Positions 1,207 through 59,022 of a stretch of 64,000 bases of DNA are shown here, piece after piece. A program made the translations under genes and the position numbers. Location: assembly GCF_963675165.1 (NCBI RefSeq), contig NC_087386.1:3226169-3290168 (forward strand), in the 5' to 3' direction. Positions within the stretch are counted from its first letter, which is position 1; each line of letters opens with the position of its first letter. The notes under the pieces are model-generated. The model ran no database searches and had not been told where the DNA came from. It was given only the letters and a program-made list of their open reading frames with translations. The stretch is from Halichondria panicea. Taxonomy: Eukaryota; Porifera; Demospongiae; Suberitida; Halichondriidae.

Positions 1207-1256
1207 TAGCCTCGATCCCAGGCCGATCCGTCTCCAATTGAACGCTAGGTCGCCTA

Positions 1257-1662
1257 GAGTAAACCACTGAAGATCAGCCACCATGATAAATCGGCCGCTC
1301 GTACGCCAACACAGCACTTGCAAATTGATTTATTTTTGCTACTATATAGAGCTCTTGATGTGATGTTCCTATGAGCCAAACGAGACTTGCAACCAACGTT
1401 GTGTTCCGGAGTTAGAGTTAACTTTCCAGCGCTGCCGAAAGTACATATATTCAGCCAATTGCATGTATTTCCGGCACAACGATCTTCTCTAGAGTATGGA
1501 GGCACGATCCAGCTAAGATTAACTTCTAGTAGTAGCTAACTATGTCTACTAGCTGCATGCAAAATATGAAACTATGTGAAACTCTGTGGTGCAGCTGTTC
1601 CGCTACTAGCCACGCTTTTTTCTCACAAATCTACCGATTGAAATTCGGCCACGCCCCATTGC
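1257..1662 (+). repeat. Left terminal inverted repeat of the pogo-like element
   Basis: This is the reverse complement of 8522 back to 7824, once the MITE inserted in the right copy is removed. The match ends at 1662, in the block GGCCACGCCCCATTGC. One 10 bp duplication near 1570-1580 is private to this copy. The meaningless 83-84 codon frames in both repeats are mirror images and are not genes. Confidence 0.9.
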
Positions 1663-1803
1663 AGGTTATAACATCATTAGCCTCGACTCCAACCGCCCCA
1701 ACTATTATAAACAGCAATCCTCAAAGATTATATGGTAACACAGACAAAATAGACAAAATAGACTACAAAAAGAACATAAAAACAATAAACAATATTATTA
1801 TTA

Positions 1804-2609
1804 CTACTGGCTACACGACATACAAAACCATGTTTTTTGAGTATCATTAAAAACAGCGTTCGGAATGTTTTCGCAATCCTGGTGGTACCATTTACTGCAA
1901 CTGTCACATGACGCCATATCCCCAAACCTCGATGTGACTTCCACATCAGAATATCGGCAACTACAGTATACAGGAACCTGCGTTTTTGTGACTATTGTCT
2001 TGGGGCAATCCCTTTTTTTTGCAGCTCGTGGGAAGCGTGACAGTTCACGATTGTTGAAGCAACGCTCCAGATGAACTCTCATCATCGATTCATCGTAGCT
2101 GATTTTCAAAGGGTTTCGACCAGAACATAAATCATAAGCCATAGCGATGGCAAACAAACCACAAGAATCATCAGTATACTGAAGTTGAACATTCACAACT
2201 TGGATTGTGAAACGGTCTTTCATACAATGGAGAATCGTGCAAGACTGTTCAATAATGGTAGGGCCAGGTTCTATGTGAAGACTGTCATACAGCTGTATTT
2301 CACTTGCATCAGATGATAATTTATTTGATAAGCACGCCCAATGAAATCCTCCAACATGCATTATTTGCACAAATTCATGAGCTGACGATCTCCACTGGAG
2401 ATTTTCGAGCAAGTACATAGTATCTTGAAGTCCGTTTTGATGAGGGAATTCTCTTCTGAGCAGCATATTTGCAGCAGAAATATGATTTGCTGACAGCCAA
2501 GCATTACGTTGAAGGGCTTGTTTCTCATAAAGAGAGAGACCAAGATCACTAACCCAATCTTTTAAGCACGGATTTGTTTCTGAGTCATCAAGCAATGATT
2601 CATTGGATA
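1804..2609 (-). CDS. Last exon of the composite gene: Ulp1/C48-like protease plus PHD finger
   Basis: The acceptor that keeps the frame is CTTTCAAG just before 2609; it joins in phase 1 to the preceding array exon. The protein begins with the KDWVSDLGLSLYEKQAL-type entry of Ulp1 domains. It then shows the His (FHW), Asp (LYDSL) and Gln...Cys (QYTDDSCG) expected of this peptidase clan. The last 55 residues hold a PHD-type zinc finger (CSC...C..CSKWYHQDC...WFCMSC). Ulp1-family enzymes remove SUMO or related modifiers, and PHD fingers often read histone tails; whether this one does either is inference. There is no in-frame ATG near the 5' end, consistent with an internal or terminal exon. Confidence 0.8.
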
Positions 2610-5600
2610 CTTGAAAGTGTACCTACAGATACAATGACATACGTAACAAGATGCTCATAGAGCATCATAACAAATATCTTACCCCACGAAAATTACCCGC
2701 TGTATGATATACAACTCTATGATATTATCCTATGGAGTGTAACTGCACAAGTAATACATTATTTACCTTGTATGCCTTCGAGACCAGCACGTGTACTAAA
2801 GGGCGTAGATTTGACATTCCTTGCAGCACTTTCCCCGCTGCTTTTCACTGGGCTCTCAGGATCAATGACAACAACAGGAGCTTGGTCGTCTGGAGATGCA
2901 TTTTACCATGAATATACAGTCAGTACAATACATGCATGTACACAAATACAAACCTGTTTTCTTTCTCCCAGTCTGAACACTCACTCCTATAAATGCACAC
3001 CAGAATCACGTGGTAACAAAACAATGAGACCCACACATATACAAGTACATGCACATGCACATTACTTACCAGCGCGTGTTCTAGAGCGCGTAGATTTGAC
3101 ATTCCTTGTACATGTAGCACTTTCCCCGCTGCTTTTCACTGGGCTCTTAGGGTCAACGACAACGACAGGAGCTTGGTCGTCTGGAGCTGCATTTTACAGT
3201 CAGTGCAATACATGCATGTACACAATACAAACCTGTCTCAGTCTTTCTCTCAGTCTGAACACTCACTCCTATAAATGCACACCAGAATCACGTAGTACCA
3301 CAACAATAAAACCCACACATATACAAGTACATGCACATGCACATTACTCACCAGCATGTGTCCTAGATCGCGTAGATTTGACATTCCTTGTACATGTAGC
3401 ACTTTCCCCGCTGCTTTTCACTGGGCTCTTAGGGTCAACGACAACGACAGGAGCTTGGTCGTCTGGAGCTGCATTTTATTGGTGCAATAACATGCATGTA
3501 CACAATACAATCCTGCCTTCTTTTCACGTAATAATACAACAATGAGACACATACATCACTCACCAGTAGGTATCTCAAAGCGCATACATTTTACGTTCCT
3601 TGTAGCATTTTTCTCACTGCTTTTCACTGGGCTCTTAGGGTCAACGACAACGACAGGAGCTTGGTCGTCTGGAGCTGCATTTACACAGTAAGTACAATAC
3701 ATGCATGTACACAATGCAAACCTGTTTTCTTTCTCCCAGTCTGAACACTCACTCCTATAAATGCATACCAGAATCACGTGGTAACAAAACAATGAGACCC
3801 ACACATATACAAGTACATGCACATTACTTACCAGCGCGTGTTCTAGAGCGCGTAGATTTGAAATTCCTTGTACATGTAGCACTTTCCCCGCTGCTTTTCA
3901 CTGGGCTCTTAGGGTCAACGACAACGACAGGAGCTTGGTCGTCTGGAGCTGCATTTTACACAGTCAGTACAATACATGCATGTACACAATGCAAACCTGT
4001 TTTCTTTCTCCCAGTCTGAACACTCACTCCTATAAATGCATACCAGAATCACGTGGTAACAAAACAATGAGACCCACACATTACAAGTACATGCACATGC
4101 ACATTACTCACCAGCGCGTGTTCTAGAGCACGTAAATTTTACGTTCCTTGTAGCACTTTCCTCGCTGCTTTTCACTGGGCTCTTAGGGTCAACGACAACG
4201 ACAGGAGCTTGGTCGTCTGGAGCTGCATTTTACACAGTAAGTACAATACATTGTACACAATACAAACCTGTCTCAGTTTTTCTCTCAGTCTGAACACTCA
4301 CTCCTATAAATGCACATCAGAATCACGTGGTAACAAAACAATGAGACCCACACATATACAAGTACATGTACATGCACATGCACATTACTCACCAGCATGT
4401 GTCCTAGATCGCGTAGATTTGACATTCCTTGTACATGTAGCACTTTCCCTGCTGCTTTTCACTGGGCTCTTAAGGTCAACGACAACGACAGGAGCTTGGT
4501 CGTCTGGAGCTGCATTTTACACAGTAAGTACAATACATGCATGTACACAATGCAAACCTGTTTTCTTTCTCCCAGTCTGAACACTCACTCCTATAAATGC
4601 ACACCAGAATCACGTGGTAACAAAACAATGAGACCCACACATATACAAGTACATGCATATGCACATTACTCACCAGCGCGTGTTCTAGAGCACGTAGATT
4701 TGACATTCCTTGTACATGTAGCACTTTCCCCGCTGCTTTTCACTGGGCTCTTAGGGTCAACGACAACGACAGGAGCTTGGTCGTCTGGAGCTGCATTTTA
4801 TTGGTGCAATAACATGCATGTACACAATACAATCCTGCCTTCTTTTCACGTAATAATACAACAATGAGACACATACATCACTCACCAGTAGGTATCTCAA
4901 AGCGCATACATTTTACGTTCCTTGTAGCATTTTTCTCACTGCTTTTCACTGGGCTCTTAGGGTCAACGACAACGACAGGAGCTTGGTCGTCTGGAGCTGC
5001 ATTTTACACAGTAAGTACAATACATGCATGTACACAATGCAAACCTGTTTTCTTTCTCCCAGTCTGAACACTCACTCCTATAAATGCACACCAGAATCAC
5101 GTGGTAACAAAACAATGAGACTCACACATATACAAGTACATGCACATGCACATTACTCACCAGCATGTGTCCTAAACGGTGTAGATTTGATGGTGGTTGT
5201 AGAACTTTTTCCACTGCTTTTCACTGGGTGAGCTTGGACGTCTGGAGCTAATTAATTGAGAAGGTCAATCCACATGTGTAGATATACATCTATACATTGT
5301 GACAACTCACATGTACTAAGAGGAGAACTCTCAAAACCACCGCCACTGAATGTATACGTATCACATAGGGTATCTGACCAGTTATCCGGAGGATCTATGT
5401 ACATGTACACGACTGCATGACGTATAAAGGAACACGACAATTTGTATTGTGACAGCAATCATAATTATGTTCACACATAAGCTCACCAGTTACTGTTATT
5501 TTTACAGGATTGGTGGCCTGATCCCTACTGTGATGATTGGGTGGATCTGTATGAGCACAAAACTTATACATAGTTGCTACGGATAAAGGGATAGGAGGAA

Positions 5601-7549
5601 TAACTCCACAAGTAATAAAGGTGCATTACTTACCAAACAGAGAAAGCTGAAGAGGGCTTACAAGTAAACTGTCCTCATCGCTGTCACACACCTCATCTGT
5701 AGTACGATAAACCGAGTAAGCACAGCACATGTAACAACAGTTAAACAAGCCAAATACCTTTTGTCTCTGTCTTGCTCTTGTCTTGTTTCTCAGTCTTGCG
5801 ACGGGTTCCTATAGTGTATAATATGAATGCATGTATGCAATGTACAAATAATTATGATGGTAATAAATTATTATGAAACCTACCTGTTGATTTTGGTTTC
5901 GATTCAATAAGTTTTTTTATATCATCTGATACTGCTAAACCTAACGATATAAAAGTATACTGTAATATATCTACGTGTAATATTCGGACTTACTTTTCTT
6001 TAATTCTCTGATGTACTTATTTTGCTCTTTTCGGAATTTCTCTTGTGCTTTATCCACTTCCTTTAATTCCATTTTTTGCCTTTCTTCTGAAGATGTTGCC
6101 ACTCTAAATGTCTTTCTCGGCTTGATTGTTGGAAGCTTATGGATTGGCTCAGGGTAAGTTAAAATTTCTTTAAGGGGTCTTCCAGCAGTTGGATATGTGT
6201 AGTTTTTGGAAGCATCAGTTTCTTTTCTAGGAACATCAGTTTCTTTTCGGGAGTACGACTTTCGTGACGGAGTCAACAATGGCAGAAATGGCAACCCATC
6301 CACATCTTCTTCCAAAACGCTTTCCTCCAGATACTCAGGTGGCATGATTTTACTCCTGTCAAGTGGATACACTCCTGTTGTTTCAAATCCGGACTGAACA
6401 TTTACCATCGTTAGTGCCTGAACCCATGCCTTCTTAAAAACGAGAATCTGCTGAGCACCTTTCCTGGATTTTGGGCCAAATATTCATGGCAGAATTGACT
6501 ATAGCGAATTTTAAGGGGACCGAAAATCCCCTTATCAAGTGGCTGCGACAGGTGCGTAGTATTAGGGGGGAGAATAAAGAGAATAACTTTTTGCTTTGCT
6601 GCCAGACGGATGGTTTCAGGTGAATAGTGTGTGCTGTGTCCATCCATCAATAGCAATAATGGGCGAACAGCAGGGGCATAACGTAGAAATAAGTTATTAA
6701 ACCAGATGTCGAAAAGCTCAGTGTCAATCCACCCATTATCAGAGAAAGCATGCAACGTCCCATGACTTCACCAGCTGCCATGTCAGGGTGCATGGACTTC
6801 CCATTCCAGATAACCATCGGGGGAATACAGTAACCAGCAGCACTGACACATGCAACTACAGTTATTTGGGTCTTTTTTCCACTCGTGATACATGAAGGAT
6901 TTTTCATTCCTTTTTTGCAAACAACTTTTGGAGGATGGTGGTCCAGAGGCATGCCTGTCTCGTCAATATTAAAAATATGTGCTGGTGTGTCTAGAAGGTC
7001 ATACTCTACTAGAACCTTCTCCAACATGTCAAAGTAACTCGAAATAACTTCTGGATCTGTGGCTTTTGCTCTTGCTACAGACAATTTAGCAGGAATTCGC
7101 AAAACTAGTTCCGAGTGTCGCTTTGTGAAGCTTTCATACCAACCATGAGTGACTGTGACCTTGACTCCTTTACGGTCGCACACTCTTTGCACAATTGCAA
7201 TTACATTACTTCTGGTTTTAGGAAAGCCAACAGAGGCACATCTAATCAAGAACCTGGTCAGTTCTGCTTCTTCTGTATCAGAGAGATACTTGTTTGGGCC
7301 ACTTTTGGCACCAGGAAGAGTGCTTCCTCGATAGTAATCGCCCAGTGTGGACCTAGGAATACCATATTCTTCAGCAGCACGTCGTTGACTCAACGTACCA
7401 TTTCTAATAGCTGAACAAGCAGTGCTTACGGTTTTCAAATCCCAATGCTTGTATGAGGGTGGGCGATTTTTTGAGTTAACTTCACATACAGTCACAGCTT
7501 TCTTAGTACGGCTATAAAATATTCTTTCTTTTAGCGGTACCTCAGCCAT
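1804..7549 (-). CDS. Composite gene: pogo-type transposase, repeated-exon linker, Ulp1/C48-like protease, PHD finger
   Basis: The start ATG is at 7549-7547. Exon A (7549-5994) encodes a psq-type HTH (about residues 25-75), a CENP-B-like DNA-binding region and a DDE_1 catalytic domain with the landmarks FNIDETGMPL, LLLMDGHSTHYSPE and LPPNTTHLSQPLDKG, then a GFETTGVYPLDR end motif and a charged helix. Two one-base losses shift the frame, near 6757-6765 and in the A/T run at 6434-6440. Next come phase-1 exons at 5884-5940, 5758-5808, 5634-5696, 5487-5546 and 5311-5394, then ten copies of one exon between 5247 and 2767, then the last exon 2609-1804. That exon encodes a C48/Ulp1-like protease with candidate catalytic residues in GGFHWACL, LYDSL and DDSCGLFA, followed by a PHD finger of Cys/His pairs at the C-terminus. 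Every tail exon length is a multiple of three and the frame is open across all inferred junctions. Expression and proteolytic activity are not shown by sequence alone. Confidence 0.82.
2767..5247 (-). repeat. Ten-copy tandem exon array inside the transposon gene
   Basis: Ten copies of one coding exon lie at 5161-5247 (87 bp, degenerate), 4886-4996, 4674-4790, 4393-4509, 4112-4222, 3832-3948, 3564-3674, 3352-3468, 3070-3186 and 2767-2889. Each has an AG acceptor and a GT donor (GTGAGT, GTAAGT or GTAAAT) on the minus strand. Lengths are 87, 111, 117 or 123 bp, all multiples of three, with phase 1 at both ends. A typical copy encodes PDDQAPVVVVDPKSPVKSS followed by a short basic Ser/Thr/Arg stretch. 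The repeat period including intron is about 210-282 bp. Symmetric exons let any number of copies be skipped without loss of frame, so linker length could vary by splicing. Confidence 0.88.
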
Positions 7550-7823
7550 ATGTAACCTACAGAATAAGCAAAGACAAAAATAAATGTTCAGCACCATAAT
7601 TGTGGGGTTCTAAGTTTGTCTCAAAGTGAAGTGAAGCTGTTGTTATTACACTATACAAGCACACTGTAAACCATTGCCAAAACATAGATACAAATTATGG
7701 CCATGAAGCTAGCTAGCTAGCTCATTAATTACCTAGAAGCGAGCCTAGAAGCACCTAGTACCTGGAAACACGTCTCACACAGTAGCACTTTCGATTTATC
7801 CACGTGGCAAGATAGTTTTGAAA

Positions 7824-8522
7824 GCAATGGGGCGTGGCCGAATTTCAATCAGTAGATTTGTGAGAAAAAAGCGTTGCTAGTAGCGGAACAGCTGCACCTA
7901 GACTCGCAAGCCGTCACTGTTGCAGGCGAACAGTAGACTGGTCAAACTCTGTGTTGAGACTCGTGTTGCACAGTCAGCATATCAGAAAATATTTTAAGTG
8001 GCTGCGGTTTTCGTGACGTCAGTATACTGCATGTGATACGTAGAGTTTTCTAGTGGAACGTCACTATTATTGATCTTGTGGTAACCGCATGCGGTTAGTT
8101 GCCACAAATATCGTGGCAAACGTTACACGAGTCTCAACACGGAGTTTGACCAGTCTACTGTTCGCCTGCAACAGTGACGGCTTGCGAGTCTAAGCTGCAC
8201 CACAGAGTTTCATATTTTGCATGCAGCTAGTAGACATAGTTAGCTACTACTAGAAGTTAATCTTAGCTGGATCGTGCCTCCATACTCTAGAGAAGATCGT
8301 TGTGCCGGAAATACATGCAATTGGCTGAATATATGTACTTTCGGCAGCGCTGGAAAGTTAACTCTAACTCCGGAACACAACGTTGGTTGCAAGTCTCGTT
8401 TGACTCATAGGAACATCACATCAAGAGCTCTATATAGTAGCAAAAATAAATCAATTTGCAAGTGCTGTGTTGGCGTACGAGCGGCCGATTTATCATGGTG
8501 GCTGATCTTCAGTGGTTTACTC
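7824..8522 (-). repeat. Right terminal inverted repeat of the pogo-like element, interrupted by a MITE
   Basis: This is the inverted copy of 1257-1662. It is interrupted at 7898-8192 by a 295 bp element; removal of that element plus one copy of its 8 bp duplication restores the match to the left repeat. Confidence 0.9.
7898..8192. mobile_element. hAT-like MITE nested in the pogo right repeat
   Basis: The ends are inverted copies for about 70 bp (CTAGACTCGCAAGCCGTCAC on the left, the reverse complement on the right). The direct repeat AGCTGCAC flanks it at 7890-7897 and 8193-8200. An 8 bp duplication fits hAT elements. The intact left pogo repeat shows the uninterrupted target with a single AGCTGCAC. 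A related, more decayed copy lies at about 29983-30223. Confidence 0.85.
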
Positions 8523-8589
8523 TACTAGGCCTGGTATTGATTGTATTTGGGCGTGATCTGGGCGTGGTTTTTTAATAAATTGACTCTGG

Positions 8590-11932: not shown

Positions 11933-12679
11933 TCACGGGGGACATAACACTGCCGAAATTGAAGCTAAGTGATCCCTGGGAGTCCGAATGTACAACAGGT
12001 ACGCTGAACTCTCCCATCTACCCAACATTTTTATGGTTGAGTCGGGGACTCCGCGTGCCCCAGCTGTCGTTGCTGCACCTATACGAAACGAGTGCCCTGC
12101 ATAGTCTTTGGCCTGCAGCCCAGCTTTTGTCATAGCCTCCCGGACTGTATCCACGAACCGAGTTTTTGACAATAGGCGACCATCCACAAACCTGAACAAA
12201 AACCCCGGGTCTTGTCCCCGAATAGCTAGGTAAGACAAGAGTGCTGCTATTGGACAGAGCGGACCTTCGGCTCGCCCCAACACAATATCTACCCCTTTTC
12301 GAAGGGGGTCTGTCTTCGATGCTTTCAGACGTAGTTTTAGGATGGAGGGGTTGGACAAACTGTCTATCGACACGTCTGCTAAATTCATATGGACCGCCGG
12401 ATCGTACCCTGCGTCTGAAGGGACAGTGATTTCCCCGGACCGAAAAAAGCCAAAGAACGCCACACAGCAAGCTGCCCATATCATGATATGGTCTGAGTTT
12501 GACCTATCATATTCCCAGATTGCCCGCAACTTCAGCAAAATTTCCGGAGTAATGGGCAACCAAATCTTAGGTTGCTTATTCGCATGCTTCAATTGGTAGG
12601 TTCTGATGCCTCTAATCACCCCTTCCAGCTTAGGCATTGAGCTTATTTTTGGGTCTGGCATGTCTTGTGCAATTTGCAT
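11933..12679 (-). pseudogene. Tyrosine recombinase domain of the DIRS-like element
   Basis: The longest open stretch is 248 codons. The first catalytic Arg lies in FFGFFRSGEITV, the His-x-x-Arg in AGHSFRIGAATTAG and the nucleophile Tyr in SSAYLLYIRTP, so the catalytic set is preserved. The N-terminal core-binding part lies in a different frame to the right (12630-13007), separated by a break, so it could not be made as one protein without a frameshift. Confidence 0.75.
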
Positions 12680-13091
12680 GTTTCGAATTGCCGACAGGTA
12701 TAACCTTTAATGGACCTATGTGAAATGCCACTTCCTGACAAAAATGACACATATTGACATAACTGATATTCATAAACTGGGAGAGGTGCAAAACTATATA
12801 GGCTACAAAATTTACTATAACCTGCAGCATACGTTCGTTGGGTGAATTTTGAAAATAGAACTCCACAGCCTGGTCCAATGCTGCGATGCCCAGTCTGGTT
12901 TGGTTAGCAAGAGCAGCTCCACTAATGCGGGAGGGATAGGGGTTGCCTGGGGTAGAGCCTGTGGGTGGAGAGAATGAAATAGGATAGCATTGTCCCTGAA
13001 AGTGCATCTGCTAGGGTATTGTCTACCCCCCTGATGTGGGAGGCGGAGACTACAAATTAAAGTTAAAACGAGCTGTGATAAATGCCAAACA

Positions 13092-48617: not shown

Positions 48618-51600
48618 TCACCTAACACACTCCATCGGTAGGTTAGATTGCACTTCTTGTAAATAATCTACCTGTTCTTGTACGGTAATGATCTTGGCTT
48701 CTAATTCCGTTCGTTTTTGACGTTGCTCTTCAATTTTATTGCGAAGAAACAAATCGACTTCTTCAACATTAGCCAACGCAAACTCAGCTAATACATTACT
48801 AAGAAGTACCTCAAGACTATCAATAGCTTTGGGGTCTGACAGTTCCAATTGGTCGAATGCACCCTGCAACATATTAACTGCAGATTGTGCTGTACCAGAT
48901 GCAGCCAATGTTGTGTTGAGTCCAGTTTCAATATTGGCTACACTTTCTGCAAGATCATCTATATCACTGAGCACATCGTTAGTCATACTGTGGATGCTCT
49001 GCACATCACTTGATAAATCCCTTACTGCATTGACAGTTGACTTTGCTTCTATGATGTTTGAAGCTTCAAATTCTACGAGTGGTGATGCCGTGAGAGACAT
49101 TACATCCTGCAAACAAGAGAATGTCAGAATGAATGTCACGGATAAAAATGAGAGCGTGCTTTGTTGCAACAAAACAACGGACACTGAGCAAATAACACAC
49201 AGCCAATAATACTAAACCTTGTGTGCGTGTTAGCGAACCTAGAACTAATAAATAGTAATTGCCTGGCAAATGTAAAGTGCTGAGTCAGCAATGAGCCGGG
49301 GCTCATTGCTAAGGGGGGATTAGAGAGTGAGTGGGGCTCGTTGCTGACTCAGCACTTTACATTCGGCAGGCACAAACTACTCTAGCTCAGCTTTTGCAAT
49401 GTTTACTGACTCTCTGCAATTGCTCCAATGTACTGTACTCTATCTAGATTCAGCCCAGTGTGTGTCAGTTAACTCTAGCTGTGTAGTTCTGGCATAAACC
49501 AGCATGTTTCGCAAGCATAAAACGTTGGGTGCAAGTGCTTATGGTATTGCAATAATAATACTGCATGCAAGATAATTTAAACTTACTTGCTTAGCTGAAG
49601 AAACAAGATCAAAAGCCTTTGAAATGTGTGCTTTTGTTGTATTTACTCGGCCCGTTAGTTCAGAAAGTTGTTTTTGGAACAGTTCCGCTTCACTCAGTAT
49701 GAGAGCAGCACTTTCGTTTATACTGGTCACATGCTGCAATGCCATATTAGCCTGAAGTGAGATTTGCAACGAATTATTGTTAAAGTCCAGCAAGTTTCGC
49801 AGAATAGTTTCAGCTAATTCTATCTGTTCGGCAACGGAATCAGCTGTCTCGTACGCTTTATTTGGAAGATCTTGGGCTCTGTTACTCTGACCAAACACAC
49901 GGCTTTCATCGACTGCTAATCGAGCTTGTACAACTTGGAAGCTACTTAATTCTCTAGCCAATGTTTGATTAAGTGCATACAGTTGCTGATGCTGGTTAGA
50001 AATTTCGATTGAGATGTCAGTGTTAACGTCAGTTTCTGTTGCATGTGAAAGAGAGATTAACTTTCGTAGAATTTCTTCAGGTGGACAATCTGGTACACTC
50101 TGAAGCAAAAGTAATTGGTCTTGAAGTATTTGTAAATTTGATGTGAGGTTGTTTACCATTGAAACAATGCGATTGATATCAACAGCTGCTGCATCGAGCA
50201 TTTCGTACGAATCATTTATCGATGCCGAGGTGTTGCTAAACAGATGAAATATGCTACCAGCTTCTTGCCGAGCATTTGCTAGGAACGTTGCAATTTGGAT
50301 TAAGTTATTCTGAATTTCGGCAACTTGACCAGAAACAAACTGCACTGATTTAGCTACAGCCTGGGAGACATTTAGACTACTATTAAGACTAGCTTGAATA
50401 CGGTAAGATGACATTTGGATAAACGGAAGCAGTTCATTTTGAATAATGTCTAAAAATGAATTCGCCGAGAAGAACTCATTAATGATACGATCAAGTAACT
50501 CATTAGATGTGGAACCAAGAACTAAAACTGTAGTGGAAGTGCTTTTTAGCGTCTCCAAAGAAAACTGTATCGACGTGCTCTGTGACTGAAGAACTTCCAC
50601 TGCCACACGTACAAGGGTATTGAATCTAGTAGTTAAATTTGTCTCTCTGACACTGAGAGCATCAATAACTGATACAATATTATTAACCACTTGTTGCTTG
50701 CCTGCTAATCGAGGGTTGAAGGGCCCAAGGCCCAAAGCAGTTAGCATATCTTGGAGTTTGGTGAGTCTGTTTTGTGCGATAAAATACCGAGCTTCAGCAT
50801 CCACTGCGTTATCTTCGATTTCTTGATAGCAACTGGGACATGCTGGAAAGGAATGACGCAAAAACACAATCGTTACATGCACATTAGGATGTTCAGAGAA
50901 GACACAATCCCACAAAAGTAAATTAATTAATACATGTACCGGGTACATCGTAGATTGGATGCCCCGGCCCTTATCATTTTACAACGACATTTGACCACAT
51001 CTAGGCACCTGGTCACTCAGTAGATTAATCATGTGTTTAAAATAATACGCTGTGTACTACTGTAAATGTCAGTCCACTACAATGAAAATTACTTTATGTA
51101 CTTCATTATTTATAGGGCTATTCTGCTTGCTCAAAAACTACACGGGTGGAGCTAGTATGCACCGTCGGGTTTAGAATGACACTGTATAAGCCTGATTGCG
51201 TTAATTTGCAAATTGCATGCAAAAAACAAGGGAAAATGCGCATGCATGCTCACTCTTTGTGTTTTGCGAATTATGCGAAATGCAATGGAAAGAAAGTCGC
51301 ATTCGAAACCCAATTTATGGTATGTATGTACCTCTGCATCTTTGACTGGTTTGAAAATAATTCGTAACACAATCTCTACAATCAGAGCCAGTAGATCCAG
51401 GCAGGCATATACAGACACCATCTGCTTCACAAAATACTGACTGGGAGTTGAATTGAGAGCAGGAACATTCTGCAAACACAAACAAAGTATTCATAACCAC
51501 TCAATCAGATTGCTTACGGGCAGTGATTCACATCACAACATAATTATAGTTATTGCAAACCCACATTCGCATTCATATACGTATGGTAGAAACAAACCTT

Positions 51601-54600
51601 GGCATCCGACAGTTGTGAAATTGAAGTACCCTTGAAGACACTGGTCACAATTATCTCCAGTAACCCCAGGGAGACAAGTACACTGTCTGTTGTCATCACA
51701 TTGAGAGCTAACTGATCCAATAGTATTACAGTTGCACGGAAGACACCCAGATTCCTGGCCAAACCCGAAATAGCCTAGAGTGCAGCGGTCACAGCTCCGT
51801 CCAATCACATTGGGTAGACAAGCACACTGCCCAAGCTCCATATTACAGACACTACTCTCAGAACCACTGAGCTCACAGTCACAGTCTGAATGCATGATCA
51901 ACAAAAATTAATGATGTTAAGTACAGCAGTGTTAATGTAGGTAAGTACGTATACAATGTATATACTACCTACTGCAAAGGTGAATTACGTACATGTATGT
52001 CGTTGTAGTCAGTACATTGTCAGAAAAAAGCTTCAACATGTGGATTACTCACCAGTACAGTTCTTCGATGTTACAGCGTCACCATAGAATCCATCTGCAC
52101 ATCGTTCACACTGATCACCCGCGGTACTCCCAAGACAACGAGTACAGGAACCCGTAGTAGTGTTACAACTAAGTGGGTCATCTAGGTTGATGTTGTTGTT
52201 GCACAAGCAATCCGTGCACAAGGAAGGTTGTCCAGTCAAGAGTCCAGTAGGATCTCCAAAGTAACCAGTTCTACAAAATTCACAGTTTTGCCCGACATGC
52301 CCACTGGGGCAATTAGTGCACATTGCTTCACCGTTTGGGAGGAGGACACACTCATCTGAAAACTGGCCACCTGGTTGAGACAGAGGGCAAGGGCAAGGTT
52401 TACAGCTAATATTTCTGATTGGATCACCAAAGAACCCTTGCTGGCAACTTCCACAGGCGGGCCCTTCTGTTGCTTGGGAACAATTCATGCACACACCATT
52501 TCCAGGGTCGCAGTTGTTTGAGAATCCATTACACTCACAAGGCTCACATGTACTCTGTGCTGTTTTTGTATAGCCTTGTGCACATCGCTCACAAGAGAGT
52601 CCGGCATAGCCCAGAGGACATTCACACTCCTCAACCCAAGAAACTTGTTCACCAAGACCAGATGATCTAACAGCTGTATCCAATCTAATTTGAGACAATA
52701 ACACTTCAGTGTTGAAATTTACCGAAATGTACAGACTGTTTAGTGAAAATAGCACATATTGAAGATCGGATAGAGAAGCGGGAGTTGAGGTAACTAAATG
52801 CAGCCATCCAGCAGTTTCGTGAAACTGAACAGAAAACAATCCATCGTCAATTTCCATTAATAATGCACCAAGTTGAATGTTCTCACGCACAAGTACTACG
52901 TCATAAGGGTCTACAGAGTAATTTTCTGCCACAGCTGCCATGCCAACGTGCAGGTATTGACTGTAAGAGCTAAGTTTATTTCCAAGAAATTGGTTAGGTG
53001 CTAAAAGTTTACCTTCCAAATTGCCAGGGATAACAATTCCAGCATCCCCTTGCATCACCTCAATTGTGTCATTTTCATTGGCAGTGACTAGCTGCCAACC
53101 ATCTAGTGGAACGACTGCTGAAGAATTAAACAAGGTAGACACTGAAGATCGTACAAAACCGTCGGCTGCGGAACACCGTGAGGTGAGGCCAGCACAGAAA
53201 CAACTCTGACAACCGTTGGGGTTGCTCTCTTGCAAGTTGAAAGTTCCGAATTGACACAAAGAACAGTCACGATCCGTAACATTCATAACACATTCGCACT
53301 GACCAGTAACGAGATCACAGCTTTTACCAAACGATCCAGTAGCATTACAGTCACATGACCTTCAGAAAAATAAATGGTGTGGGAAAAATGGATACATGCA
53401 TCTACATGTATTATTACTACGTAGATGCACCTTAGACAGGCAGCTAGGGTACTCCAGGCCACCATGATATACACATACTTAGCTAAATTTCATTCCACCC
53501 ACTTTAATATGGCCTTAATATGCTCATGTATGTACTGTCACATTTGTGAGAGAGTTCTCACATGCACTGTACCTGCAACCGGACTCCTGAAAGCCGTAGT
53601 AAAATTGTGCACACCGGTCACAAGTTGCCCCGGTTACACCAGGCTTGCATTCACACACACCAGATGTATCATCACAATTGGTATTCACAGCTCCTACAGA
53701 ATATGGATCAAAACGACATAATTATTATCTCGCACATATGTACATGATAGATATCGGCTCCCTATAAACAGTGGTCTTTTATTTTAGTCAAAGTAAAATT
53801 CTGTCTACTTTTATACTTATACTAATTAATACAACATTGTAGCAATAATTATGTGTAAGGTATAATTATATATTTGTATGCTGCATAATTATTTTCTTGT
53901 TACCAATAAGACTACAGTTGCACGAGAAACACTGTAGATCTCCAAGGTTTCGGAATCCTTCAGCACATGACGAGCAATCTCTTCCAACAGTGTTCTCTAT
54001 GCACTGACACACACCGCTAGTAGAATCACAATAAGGGCTAATGGAACCATCAACATCACAGTCACATCCTACACATATGTGAAGAGTATTTCATTTTAAC
54101 AATGAACAAGAGGCAAGTGTGAGACACTCACTTGAACAGCCACTGGTGTTAAGGTTGTAATAGCTGGGAATGCACTGATCACATTGACGCCCCCTCACTC
54201 CCGGCAAACAGAAGCATTTCCCTCCAAAAGCCTGACAAGTAGTGCCACGTTGGCTGCCAGTCTCATCACAGCTGCACTCTGTAGTGATATATATCCTTGA
54301 ACAACCATTTTAGGAACAACGAAGGCATGCACTTACAATATATCTTAGCTGACTAGCTATAGAATGAAATAACAGTTCACTCACCCAATGCTCCATTGTA
54401 CACAGCTACTGATATGGTGAATATTGTCAAGGCACATGACGGATTGGCTGAGGACCGAGTAATGATATGACTGTACTCATTAATGCAGTCCATGTAATCG
54501 GAAACAAGTTGAGTATGATCAAATATGGGGAGACCTGCAGCCATTATCGGGACTATAAAAAGGGAGTCAATGTCGAACATGCCGGGGCTGCCAGATAACC

Positions 54601-57333
54601 CTGATGAAAAATCATGGAGACTATAGTTATAGCTTTGTCCTGCACGTAGGCAAACAGCAACAGAGTTGGTTACACCACTCCCCATTGGCCACGAAGAGTA
54701 AATGATCGATGTATTTGTAGTTATCTCCTCGATACTCTCACTACAGCTGAAAGAGTCTCTCCCAACATTTGGGTTGGGTGTAATTGACAGTGTAACACTA
54801 TCCCACATGGTTATTCCTTGAAGGTTGTACCTGATGTAAATGATGTACAGCCCACTTACTGGGGCAGTCAAATATCCCAACTCTAGCCTATCGGAAGTAC
54901 TAGTGACACGAGCATAACCAGTGCCCGTAAATCGTTCATTTTCTCCACTGGTTTCAATAATTCGATTAGAGCTATATTTTTCAGCCTCCAGACGGAGATA
55001 ATCGATAGAGGGATAGAAGTACCCGTTAATAGTTTCTGAACATGTCCTTCCTTGGATACCCTGTCTACAAACACACTGTCCAGTAATCATGTCACACTGG
55101 GAGTTAATCGAACCACCCGAGTTGCAATTGCAAGGCAGACAACCTTCGGAGGTTATTGGGATAGGTTGATAAAAGTTGGGTAGGCATTGGTCGCATTTAT
55201 CACCAACAATGTTTTGTTTACACTGACACACACCGTTTACAGGATTGCATTCTGTGCTTAGGGATCCAGTGGAGTTACAGTTACATTCTGCATAAATGGA
55301 ACCGTATCAAAAATTGGAATTAATGTGACAATAACATACCTTGACAGCCATCTGGGTTTTCAATAGTCAAGTTATAGAAACCAGACATGCATTGTTCACA
55401 CGCTTGTCCAATCACTTGAGATTTACAAAAGCACTGCCTGACTTCAACACCCTGGTTTGCTCCTCGGGTACACTCACCATCATCTGTCACTCCAGCAAGA
55501 TTGCAGTTGCACGCTTTGAGAATTAGACAAAACATAAAAAGGTGGGACTATGAATCTCATCCTGTCCTTAAAACGATAAACATATACATACACAATTTTG
55601 CCACACACATTTTAACACGACTACTATAATTACATGACTGTACCTACTGCTTGGATATCAAAGCAAATCGGCAGACATAAATTATAATTATCTTCAAGCA
55701 TAATAATAGTAATTGATGATAATTATACACCAGTGTTGCATAATGATTTTCTATTATGAACGTCTCAAATTCAGGATGCAAAAAAAAAACTCACGTTGGC
55801 AGGCATTGACATCACTGATATCGAGACCTGGTATCTGATAGTGGGAAGTAGCACATTGATCACATTGTCTTCCAGCAGTGTTGTCCTGGCAATTGATGCA
55901 CACACCCCCACTTGTTTCCCCAGACTGAGAGTACACGTCCGAGTCAAACACACATATTGTTGAGTGGCCATTGCAGCTACACACTGTAGGGTGTAATGAT
56001 CACTGATAAATAAATAATTCAAGCTTGACTAGTTATGGTTGGTGATGGATGATACACAATCATCCAATGTACTTTGCACATACAAGACTAGTGTAAACAA
56101 ATTCATATCCAATTATGCCAAACTGTGGTAAACATTCAAAAAAGTGGGTGGAACAGGTCCACCACCTACCGTGGAACCTCCCATAAGCTGAATACCAATA
56201 ACTTTAGTGTTTTAGTGAATACAACCTCTCAATAAAGGACAACTGGCATACAATCTTGCACATTTTTGGGAGTTCCAGAAATCACAATTTTCATTCAAGC
56301 CTATGCTACTTCAACCAACCCTAATCTCAACCAAGCGCAATACACCTGTTACATTTATGCACTCACTTTGGCATTCAATCTCTCCATTTCCATTTGCCCT
56401 GTGCCATGGCCTATCTTGATAAAAATCTGCGCAACGTTCACAAAATTGTCCAGCGGTATTATGTTGACAAACACATTCATACTCATGTGTAGTGGGGCTT
56501 CTTGTACAGGCAGACGCATGCCCATTGCACTGACAGCTTCCAACAACATTCAAATCATTGATTGCATAGTAGTAGCCAAAGTCATCCGGTGCCAAGTCCG
56601 GGATTGGAAAGTGTTCAGCGAGCACCACTCTGATGTTGGTAGCAGTGAGAAAATCAAACAGCATGCTGCTATAACCAGGAATAGAGTCATTAGCAGATGG
56701 TCGACCAAGTCGGGGAAAGAAACTCTTTGCTCCAGGGGCTGGAGGAAGATTAATACTCTGACACAAAACAGTTGTTTCATTGGCTATATCAAGCATCTGA
56801 TTCGACTCGAGACCAAATGTGTCAACACAAGAAACAGCGAAGTAATGATAGGGAGTATACGTTTGGCCATAATCATCAGATTTCAGAATGTAAAAGCTGT
56901 TTGGCATGAATGAAGCAAAGTTGAATCTTATTACTTCAACCTGTACAAGAGTTTGTAGAGAAAGTTCGATTACTACAACATTCTGTGTGTCAAAAGTATT
57001 CTCAGATTGCCACCAACTCTCTTCATTCAGAAGAAAATCAGTAATTAAACTTGGAGGGTGAGAGTTAACGGAACTGTCTGCATCACATATAGCAGAGCAG
57101 TCACTAGTGACTTCCCTAAGTATCAGGCTGTATTGTCTTGTACAAAATTCAGTAGGAGGAAATCCACATGTGCTGTTCACTTCTGGAACTTGGTTGAAAG
57201 AAAACGATTGTGTGGGTGGCTCACAATGAACAGCAATTCCATTTGCCTCGTAACACTCCGACTGGATTTGTTCTTGACCAAAAACGTGCAATACTAGCAG
57301 CAGAAATACTGTTAAGGTGGTACACATGACCAT
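48618..57333 (-). CDS. Laminin short-arm/coiled-coil chain (gamma-like) with both LF-type and L4-type domain IV
   Basis: The start is 57333 (MVMCTTLTVFLLLVLHVFGQ, signal peptide). Domain order: laminin N-terminal domain plus first LE repeat (57333-56370; QCNGHASACTRS, CQHNTAGQFCERC); LE exons at about 55980-55795, 55515-55340 and 55285-55030; a laminin IV domain of LF (beta-chain) type at about 55030-54390 (GYFYPSIDYLRLEAEKY); LE exons at about 54280-53330; an L4 (type A) domain at about 53200-52650 (VPLDGWQLVTANENDTIEV); LE repeats at 52640-51375; then coiled coil at about 50845-49590 and 49110-48618 with no LG domains. The C-terminus ends QSNLPMECVR, a single Cys near the end as in gamma and beta chains that pair at the end of the coiled coil. 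This is a basement-membrane or extracellular-matrix subunit that should assemble with other chains. The mix of LF and L4 is unlike vertebrate beta or gamma chains. Confidence 0.85.
49261..49370. repeat. 110 bp palindromic MITE-like repeat in a laminin intron
   Basis: The left arm TGTAAAGTGCTGAGTCAGCA is mirrored at 49340-49363 (TGCTGACTCAGCACTTTACA). The middle has imperfect GGGGCTC pairing. Confidence 0.75.
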
Positions 57334-57819
57334 TTCGTTGAGGCAAACAGTGCAGTGATACAATGGAGCTTCTCTGCCTTGCGGTTCAGGTTCTACACAG
57401 CTAAAACTCGAAAAGGGGAGGGGCTGAGAACTCTGTGAATTAGACCGATTTTTCTCCAATCAATAGATCTAGTGTCTGTGTTACTTTATAATTATAATTA
57501 TTATAGTAACAGACTGAATTTCTAGGACTCTGTACTATCGATCTATGCCTCTCATCAGCTTGCAGAATAACAAAACAAGCGGGCTATGGCCACCCTGCAT
57601 TATTATGAACTATATTATAGACAGTATGTTATAGTATAGACTACTGGCGCGGCGCGGTGCAAGATATTAATTTATTTATTGTGAATACTGGGAAGCTACA
57701 CTCTTATTTCCACTTCTCTGAATTCTGCCTGAACTGATCATCATTAGATCGCTCTAGCTAACTTGTCCTCTGGCCTGGTCTCGAGGGCTAGGGCTAGTGA
57801 GAGAACTGAGGAGTCACTA
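57334..57819. promoter_or_regulatory. Divergent spacer between laminin and the kinase element
   Basis: It holds the laminin promoter on the minus strand; no clear TATA box. The right boundary is the TA at 57818-57819 that flanks the kinase-bearing inverted-repeat element. Confidence 0.35.
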
Positions 57820-59022
57820 GCCTCGATCCCAGGCCGAGTTTTCGCTTTTATAACGGTTAGGCGATTTAAGGAGACACGTGACCTATAGGGACGCCATAAA
57901 TTTTATTCAGGCGCATGCGCTGACGGTTACTCAGTAATAACTCCCATTAGGTGACTGCATCCCTCCCTGTACTAGCTAGTAACAGCTTTAAGTATGTACA
58001 CTACAGTGAGTAGAAACCTGGTTGCTAGAACAGTACGACCGTTTCCAGACCTCCCTCAATACAGAGGAGATCATCGATTTGACTTGTTTCTTCCTCCATC
58101 GTACCTTTTTGGCCACACACTGGGTGATGGAGAGTTTGCAACAGTGAGATTGGCTTACAACCTCCGAACTGAAACATACGTGGCAATTAAGTGTTTCAAG
58201 CCAAGATCAGGGCAGTACATGATGCTAGATGAGCAAATAATGAGAGAACTTATGGCTACAAAAGGATTGACACATCAGCACATTGTAAGAACGTATGAAG
58301 CAATACTTTATGGAAATCGAATTTTTATGGTAATGGAATATTGTCCATATGGAGATCTCAGAAAGTACATAAACAAAACTGGAGCTTTAGCTGAAGTTGC
58401 TGCAAGGAGGTTTTTTGGTCAATTATGTTTAGGAGTTCAAAAAATGCACAATCTGGATTTAGTGCACCGAGATCTAAAGCTAGAAAACATTCTGATTGAT
58501 GCAAACTTCAAACTCAAGATAGGAGATTTGGGATGTGCCAGAAGACAGATGGATAAGCAGTTACACACTGTCACAGGAAGCTACGCTTATGGAGCTCCAG
58601 AATTAGTGAGGGGGGACCATTACAATGGGAAAAAGGCAGACATGTGGAGCCTCGGGATTATCCTCTACGCCATGGTTGTTGGAAAACTTCCGTATACTGA
58701 CAAAGGGCGACTAAAAAAGATGCTAAAGGACAGGATGAAAATTCCTGAGTTTCCTCTCACTCTCTCTGTCCAATGCTGTCAAATACTTTCTGGACTCCTG
58801 TCCTATGACCCACATAATAGACTATCTCTGGACGAAATCATACGACATCCCTGGATGGAGGTTGGAGTAGAAACTGAGCTGTAGGAATTAACTCCTATAC
58901 TTATTATTTTGTGCAAATATTTTGTCAAAATCATTGTTTTGCGCCCATTACCTAGGCTGTAACAATTTACTGCAACAAAAAAAGACTTATAAAAAAGCGA
59001 AAACTCGGCCTGGAATCGAGGC
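57820..59022. mobile_element. Inverted-repeat element of the GCCTCGATCCCAGGCC family enclosing a kinase gene
   Basis: Left end GCCTCGATCCCAGGCCGAG then TTTTCGCTTTTATAA; the right end is its mirror (from TTATAAAAAAGCG to CTCGGCCTGGAATCGAGGC, 58987-59022). About 35 bp match with one substitution and a small T-run difference. The left flank is TA; the right flank is CA, one base off a TA duplication. The kinase reading frame 57994-58884 lies wholly inside. This may be one element that captured the gene, or two independent insertions facing inward. Confidence 0.6.
57994..58884 (+). CDS. Intronless Ser/Thr kinase, TSSK-like (CAMK group)
   Basis: A single 296-codon frame, close to the 270-300 residues of testis-specific Ser/Thr kinases. 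Gly loop LGDGEFATV (about residue 43), VAIK lysine, catalytic loop LVHRDLKLENIL, activation segment start IGDLGCARR, APE-equivalent GAPELV, and MWSLGIILYAMVVGKLPY. The magnesium-binding motif is DLG instead of DFG, a tolerated change in some active kinases. There are no C-terminal domains. The lack of introns beside intron-rich neighbours fits a retrogene or the naturally intronless TSSK genes. Every catalytic residue needed is present, so activity is plausible. Confidence 0.85.
   Translation: MYTTVSRNLVARTVRPFPDLPQYRGDHRFDLFLPPSYLFGHTLGDGEFATVRLAYNLRTETYVAIKCFKPRSGQYMMLDEQIMRELMATKGLTHQHIVRTYEAILYGNRIFMVMEYCPYGDLRKYINKTGALAEVAARRFFGQLCLGVQKMHNLDLVHRDLKLENILIDANFKLKIGDLGCARRQMDKQLHTVTGSYAYGAPELVRGDHYNGKKADMWSLGIILYAMVVGKLPYTDKGRLKKMLKDRMKIPEFPLTLSVQCCQILSGLLSYDPHNRLSLDEIIRHPWMEVGVETEL

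Follow-up and report, generated by a model that had tools for sequence, protein, structure and literature searches.

Does a pogo-type transposon of the sponge Halichondria panicea encode one protein in which the transposase is joined to a Ulp1-type protease and a PHD finger? The coding content of cut-and-paste transposons is generally regarded as little more than the transposase, and the question is raised by a gene in a 64,000-nucleotide stretch of contig NC_087386.1 (C10:3226169–3290168; hereafter the window), for which an earlier note, made from the letters of the DNA, had proposed such a fusion. Searches were made within the same 131.5-Mb assembly, from which stretches L001–L044 were taken out for comparison; copy and match counts for the genome are lower bounds. 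We are highly confident of the anatomy, which is that of a pogo transposon with a transposase, a linker, a Ulp1-type protease and a PHD finger. The best explanation overall, which we judge moderately probable, is that the transposon makes a predicted transposase-Ulp1-PHD chimera with a SUMO-type protease and a role in docking on histone H3 trimethylated at lysine 4 (H3K4me3).

The pogo-type element occupies window positions 1257–8522, a larger interval than the gene itself, and has TA on both flanks and 406-bp inverted ends (Table 1). A DNA search with part of the exon encoding the Ulp1-PHD cassette recovered nine copies of this family (one of them split over two rows), and the cassette sequence was present in 9/9. 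TA/TA flanks were found in all seven copies with both ends recovered, and the matches to the left end (18/18) all fell within the nine copies, the far end of the copy on C1 being assigned by position. Full-length matches of the ends of other copies were 93–97% identical to the window left end, and one partial end was 90% identical. The repeat hosting L002 also provided an empty site, since in its uninterrupted units the insertion point is represented by one TA. L002 and L003 are inserted in repeats of one kind and may go back to a single insertion that was later duplicated. One shared breakpoint of an internal deletion, removing most of the transposase, was found in L001–L004, L006 and L008. 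Recent movement in trans is suggested by L001 and L002, because these copies, on C10 and C8, have identical match tables.

The transposase exon of the window gene matched HTH_psq with 40.9 bits (Pfam cut-off, 20.4) and HTH_Tnp_Tc5 below the cut-off only, and DDE_1 reached 60 bits on one frame piece of the exon. The tail that follows comprises 16 exons with AG/GT borders in a single phase, open through 743 residues to the stop codon, and the lengths of its 15 internal exons are all divisible by three. The 15th tail exon has lost its regular acceptor AG, and another AG, six bases into the exon, serves the frame instead; the donor of this exon and the acceptor of the last exon were picked so as to keep the frame. 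Both the TA-flanked pogo-type transposon that the earlier note had drawn around the gene and the one-phase tail of 16 exons that it had described were thus confirmed, as were the further TA-flanked copies that it had suggested looking for.

Table 1 Features of the pogo-type element and its gene (window positions).
Feature	Position	Strand	Remarks
TA target-site duplication, left	1255..1256	.	TA/TA in 7/7 copies with both ends recovered
Left terminal inverted repeat	1257..1662	+	406 bp; starts GAGTAAACCACTG
Window gene	1804-7549	-	ATG at 7549; stop 1804-1806
PHD finger, C4HC3	1807..1980	-	Pfam PF00628; nearest solved structures CXXC1, PHF2
Ulp1/C48-like domain	2023..2565	-	Predicted catalytic H 2341-2343, D 2284-2286, Q 2179-2181, C 2161-2163; invariant in 13 cassettes; profile match SENP1
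Last exon, Ulp1-type protease and PHD finger	1804..2622	-	272-residue frame; stop 1804-1806; one-phase reading begins at 2609
Nine linker repeat exons	2785..4996	-	105-117 bp each; in-phase duplications; tandem period about 274-282 bp
Six small tail exons	5161..5940	-	All phase 1; last (5161-5247) resembles the repeat exons
Transposase exon	5994..7549	-	HTH_psq, DDE_1; frame broken near 6758-6764 and 6438-6441
Right terminal inverted repeat	7824..8522	-	Split by the nested insertion 7899-8192
Nested inverted-repeat insertion	7899..8192	.	294 bp; 68-bp arms; flanked by 9-bp direct repeats (7890-7898, 8193-8201)
TA target-site duplication, right	8523..8524	.	

The fusion is predicted unbroken in copy L005 on C9 (5144 bp), both ends of which are ~97% identical to the window left end. 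Its transposase frame comprises 541 residues with the triad D195, D302 and D338 in the DD35D arrangement (DDE_1, PF03184, E 1.7e-20), and the predicted gene of 10 exons and nine GT-AG introns gives a stop-free fusion of 1003 residues. The last exon of L005 is directly preceded by a stop codon, and its first Met falls inside the protease domain. Linker exons of the repeated kind number three in L005 (two repeat copies and the counterpart of 5161–5247) versus 10 in the window (nine and 5161–5247), so that linker exons have been gained or lost in phase between the two copies.

The cassette retains the residues expected of its two domains. An alignment of 13 cassettes (A1) contained 21 invariant columns, including H94, D113, Q148 and C154 of the predicted protease, and the C4HC3 zinc ligands (C220, C222, C239, C242, H247, C250, C267 and C270) were invariant in 13/13. 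In a wider set of 21 rows that included broken cassettes, H, D and C were kept in 21/21 and Q in 20/21, and all four were kept in 7/7 pogo rows. The PHD finger of the window exon matched PF00628 with 34.7 bits (cut-off, 24; E 1.8e-8). Among the best 60 of 193 matches of the cassette profile to the PDB, SENP1 was the top protease (E 2.1e-7 over profile positions 21–168), and the PHD matches were PHF2, DIDO1, PHF8, BPTF and SPP1, with E values down to 1.3e-12; with the window exon as the sole query, CXXC1 and PHF2 ranked first for the PHD finger. All six of these PHD proteins are known as H3K4me3 readers. The cage positions of H3K4me3-binding PHD fingers, which we take from the PHF2 and PHF8 structures to be Y, M and W in this cassette, are all present in the window and in L005, and the W position is kept in 17/19 PHD-bearing rows.

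Five further pogo families (L009, L010, L011, L012 and L013) have the cassette downstream of the transposase on the same strand, their transposases being 36–49% and their cassettes 41–45% identical to those of the window. In L009 and L010, transposase and cassette are enclosed by one pair of inverted ends starting TAGAGT; L012 has the same arrangement, except that one of its ends departs from this start by two bases. The transposase and cassette frames of L009 can be joined in phase by a single short predicted intron, as judged by eye. L011 has a single TAGAGT-type end and long inverted repeats, and L013 has a DUF4371 frame of another element between transposase and cassette and no clear element ends. 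A same-strand cassette was located ≤6 kb downstream of 14/58 pogo transposase loci (nine of the window family and five others), against 0.17 expected at random spacing. The 58 loci were derived from 74 transposase matches by merging by hand 16 rows that stood beside another listed row, and the cassette set for this count comprised 125/142 matches, two split rows and the 15 weakest having been left out. The count excludes two same-strand pairs 7.9–8.0 kb apart, one of them beyond the likely end of L015, and an opposite-strand pair at L031.

The fusion that the earlier note had put forward is supported by the unbroken copy L005, by nine of nine copies of the family carrying the cassette and by five further families; tail-less copies beside an independent source of the exon were not found in the window family, and other types of element do contain related cassettes.

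Other pogo families of this genome showed no cassette in the stretches compared. No cassette was found within 7 kb at L014–L017, which have long pogo frames (575–676 residues), with six cassette queries (tblastn, E up to 0.01), except for a 20-residue match at 0.010 in L017. L018 is ~96% identical to L012 and has neither a cassette nor a second end in the stretch examined, and L039 was counted as lacking the cassette from the linkage comparison only, with 2.5 kb examined. A 2255-residue open frame at a pogo match on C17 (L044) runs through long runs of N and was dismissed.

The tree of 20 cassettes placed the pogo cassettes together with that of L037 in one clade (support 100/99.9) and the Mutator cassettes in another (100/99). 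The transposase trees hold sequences of this genome only. A single clade of cassette-family transposases was not rejected in a test with 11 rows, from which L018 and L040–L044 were left out (p value of the approximately unbiased test, p-AU, 0.274), and a test with 17 rows gave the opposite outcome (below). Neither test shows a single origin of the transposases of the cassette families; one capture with later losses and exchange among pogo families both fit.

Several observations weigh against a working chimera of this kind. Transposase and tail do not form one reading frame in the window copy, because its transposase exon is broken at two places (Table 1), so that the single frame claimed in the earlier note stands for the predicted gene of L005 and fails for the copy from which it was proposed. 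The splice sites are predictions, and more than one in-frame solution exists at the junction before the last exon. The profile search of the last exon that the note had recommended was positive for the PHD finger; the Pfam model C48 had no match at E up to 1 in the window exon, L010, L012, L020, L023 or L024. The same model scored above its cut-off in L011, L022 and L032 and below it in L009, L019, L021 and L030, and the protease call for the window draws on these relatives, the kept residues and the profile match to SENP1. A single-sequence AlphaFold2 model of the window cassette had a mean predicted local distance difference test (pLDDT) score of 33 and was discarded. Predicted methyl-lysine cage residues are changed in some families: the Y position is occupied by F in L009, H in L011 and I in L013, and the M position by V in L010. 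In the best tree the six cassette families do not group by their transposases, L005 and L009 falling among families without a cassette, and the 17-row test, in which truncated siblings such as L040 were scored as lacking the cassette, rejected a single clade (p-AU 5e-6).

The same cassette is also found in unrelated elements of this genome. A single frame of 1210 residues in L021 (798–4427, +) contains a Mutator transposase (PF20700 above cut-off) and ends in Ulp1-PHD, and one of 1148 residues in L022 (3262–6705, -) contains a P-element domain (PF12017 above and PF21787 below cut-off) that runs into Ulp1-PHD. In L019, a 757-residue frame ends in the cassette; judged by eye, this frame resembles a Gypsy-type integrase, and no Pfam integrase model matched it at E up to 1. 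L035 has a frame with rve and H2C2 integrase domains upstream of a same-strand cassette frame. The integrase-type loci may belong to Ginger-like DNA transposons or to LTR elements. Frames joining HIRAN to Ulp1, with no PHD finger, occur in L031 (2035–3081, -) and L032 (1486–2493, +), HIRAN being identified by Pfam in L032 and by likeness in L031. Viral contigs scanned with alignment A1 gave 17 pattern matches, none of which was confirmed.

Further observations concern the surroundings of these cassettes and of the window element. Cassettes related to that of the Mutator-type L021 occur at L020, L028, L036 and L038. Short Ulp1-PHD frames in L023, L024 and L035 lie near long repeats of the PSQKPD or PSSHKPD type and have several near-equal matches across the genome. 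The HIRAN-Ulp1 frame of L031 faces a divergent frame (490–1479, +) with a sub-threshold match to a Tc5-type DNA-binding domain. The 9-bp direct repeats at the nested 294-bp insertion would presumably suit a Mutator-type element, and a unit in L011 (7050–7342) has arm starts matching this insertion and likewise a 9-bp direct repeat beside it. Elsewhere in the window, a frame at 11933–12706 (-) resembles a Crypton- or DIRS-type tyrosine recombinase, and laminin-like frames at 49539–57459 (-), with the laminin-like gene at about 52–57 kb, and a serine/threonine-kinase-like frame at 57976–58884 (+) were noted, all by eye; the laminin-like and kinase-like frames point to an animal host.

Our best single account of the mechanism, offered tentatively from the domain content, is that, at active chromatin, the host's proteins of silencing or repair would be stripped of SUMO-like tags. 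The single gene would be transcribed as a fusion and give a chimera of a psq-type DNA-binding domain, a DDE transposase, a phase-1 linker of small exons, a Ulp1/SENP-type cysteine protease and a PHD finger. Through its PHD finger the complex would dock on active chromatin, marked by H3K4me3; the protease, if active, would take SUMO or a modifier resembling it off proteins involved in silencing or repair, or off the transposase itself. Removal of the modifier might keep the element expressed and allow transposition to finish. The cassette was perhaps taken up once by the pogo lineage and then kept, and elements of the Mutator, P and Gypsy-integrase-like kinds in this genome would make use of related cassettes. 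It is possible, if somewhat less than probable, that Ulp1-PHD is a portable module, which no fewer than four unrelated superfamilies of transposase (pogo, P, Mutator and the Gypsy-integrase type) have acquired and long kept, and which acts as a general anti-silencing tool that docks on H3K4me3 chromatin and strips the SUMO marks needed for small-RNA-guided transcriptional silencing.

Other roles for the same two domains would divide the work differently. The PHD finger might be the working part, steering insertion to H3K4me3 chromatin, with the protease merely tuning SUMO on the transposase. Matches of the PHF2/CXXC1/BPTF type speak for this reading, as does the finding of Y, M and W in both the window and L005; it appears rather unlikely, since the HIRAN-Ulp1 frames of the same genome hold the protease with no PHD finger in the frame seen, and the Y position differs among pogo families. 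The chimera could also be a precursor from which the C48-type domain releases the transposase by cleaving itself or the linker, comparable to viral adenain-like proteases. The cassette does stand C-terminal to the linker in pogo, Mutator and P proteins, with its catalytic residues kept, but SENP1 and a Ulp1-like SUMO protease are among the best 60 of 193 PDB matches and no protease of viral maturation is among these 60, and this account, which we consider unlikely, leaves the PHD finger without a role.

The unity of the gene can be questioned as well. If transposase and Ulp1-PHD were two genes expressed separately from one element, the family-to-family variation in the number of small exons between them would be readily accommodated; the stop codon before the last exon of L005 and the position of its first Met, the single phase of all tail exons and the in-phase junction available in L009 make this improbable. 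We give almost no credence to a chance neighbourhood, or to one element nested in another. Nested insertions do happen, as at 7899–8192 in the window and with the DUF4371 frame of L013, but six families share the same order and strand, three of the five besides that of the window have both parts inside shared ends, and the pogo cassettes form one clade; chance proximity was dismissed on the linkage count and this single clade. A transposase-Ulp1-PHD chimera with a predicted SUMO-directed protease remains the explanation that we favour.

How far this chimera departs from known elements can be judged from published descriptions. A survey of the pogo superfamily used an hmmscan screen, and its section 8 names only DNA-binding and DDE domains, for elements of 1.20–5.20 kb with transposases of 300–977 residues (Gao et al. 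2020, PMC7386202). The present element agrees with the superfamily as portrayed there in its TA target sites, inverted ends, DDE_1 domain with DD35D and psq-type DNA-binding domain, and differs by the addition of Ulp1 and PHD and by the 1003 residues predicted in L005. According to the survey's statements on subgroups, very long terminal inverted repeats in pogo are reported only in insects, and Fot/Fot-like elements are placed outside animals (PMC7386202). HTH_psq with DD35D is the signature given there for Fot/Fot-like elements, and by domain features the same combination is encountered here (PMC7386202). CENPB, POGK and POGZ also combine a pogo transposase with extra domains; in the survey's account these are genes of the host that arose by domestication and have dimerisation, KRAB or zinc-finger domains, whereas here the chimera is inside a mobile element (PMC7386202).

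The module itself has precedents. Ginger1 elements have a C-terminal Ulp1, in one listed family (Ginger1-9_HM) together with PHD, on a DDE-type transposase with inverted ends, but their transposase is Gypsy-integrase-like and their target sites are CCGG/CCGT (Bao et al. 2010, PMC2836005). Membership of the window element in Ginger1 was rejected on its DDE_1 transposase and TA sites. In the same paper, a figure legend describes an alignment of Ulp1 and PHD from transposases of Ginger1 and Mutator (PMC2836005). Mutator-type transposons with Ulp1 resemble the present case in the C-terminal Ulp1-PHD cassette, as in L021, and differ in their Mutator transposase and separate cassette clade (PMC2836005). 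Cryptons with a C48 peptidase likewise carry a Ulp1-related protease in a transposon; they differ in having a tyrosine recombinase and in that the peptidase is an additional protein in some CryptonS, the passages on which mention no PHD finger (PMC3212892). Text searches of open-licence PMC papers turned up no title on Ulp1 or PHD in a pogo element; their scope did not extend to Repbase reports or to most subscription journals, so that an entry existing only in a database is possible. The Ulp1-PHD module is thus already published for Ginger1 and Mutator, as is C48 in Cryptons, and its joining to pogo is the new part within the open literature searched.

The joining of the cassette to the transposase, its retention across six diverged pogo families and its occurrence in unrelated elements point to selection for a function of the element itself. 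In flies, the silencing of transposons is supported by host SUMOylation, and the cassette is therefore a concrete, testable counter-defence candidate for an animal transposon. Pogo families with and without the cassette occur in one genome and offer a natural comparison, and the presence of one module in unrelated elements hints at a shared way of coping with host silencing.

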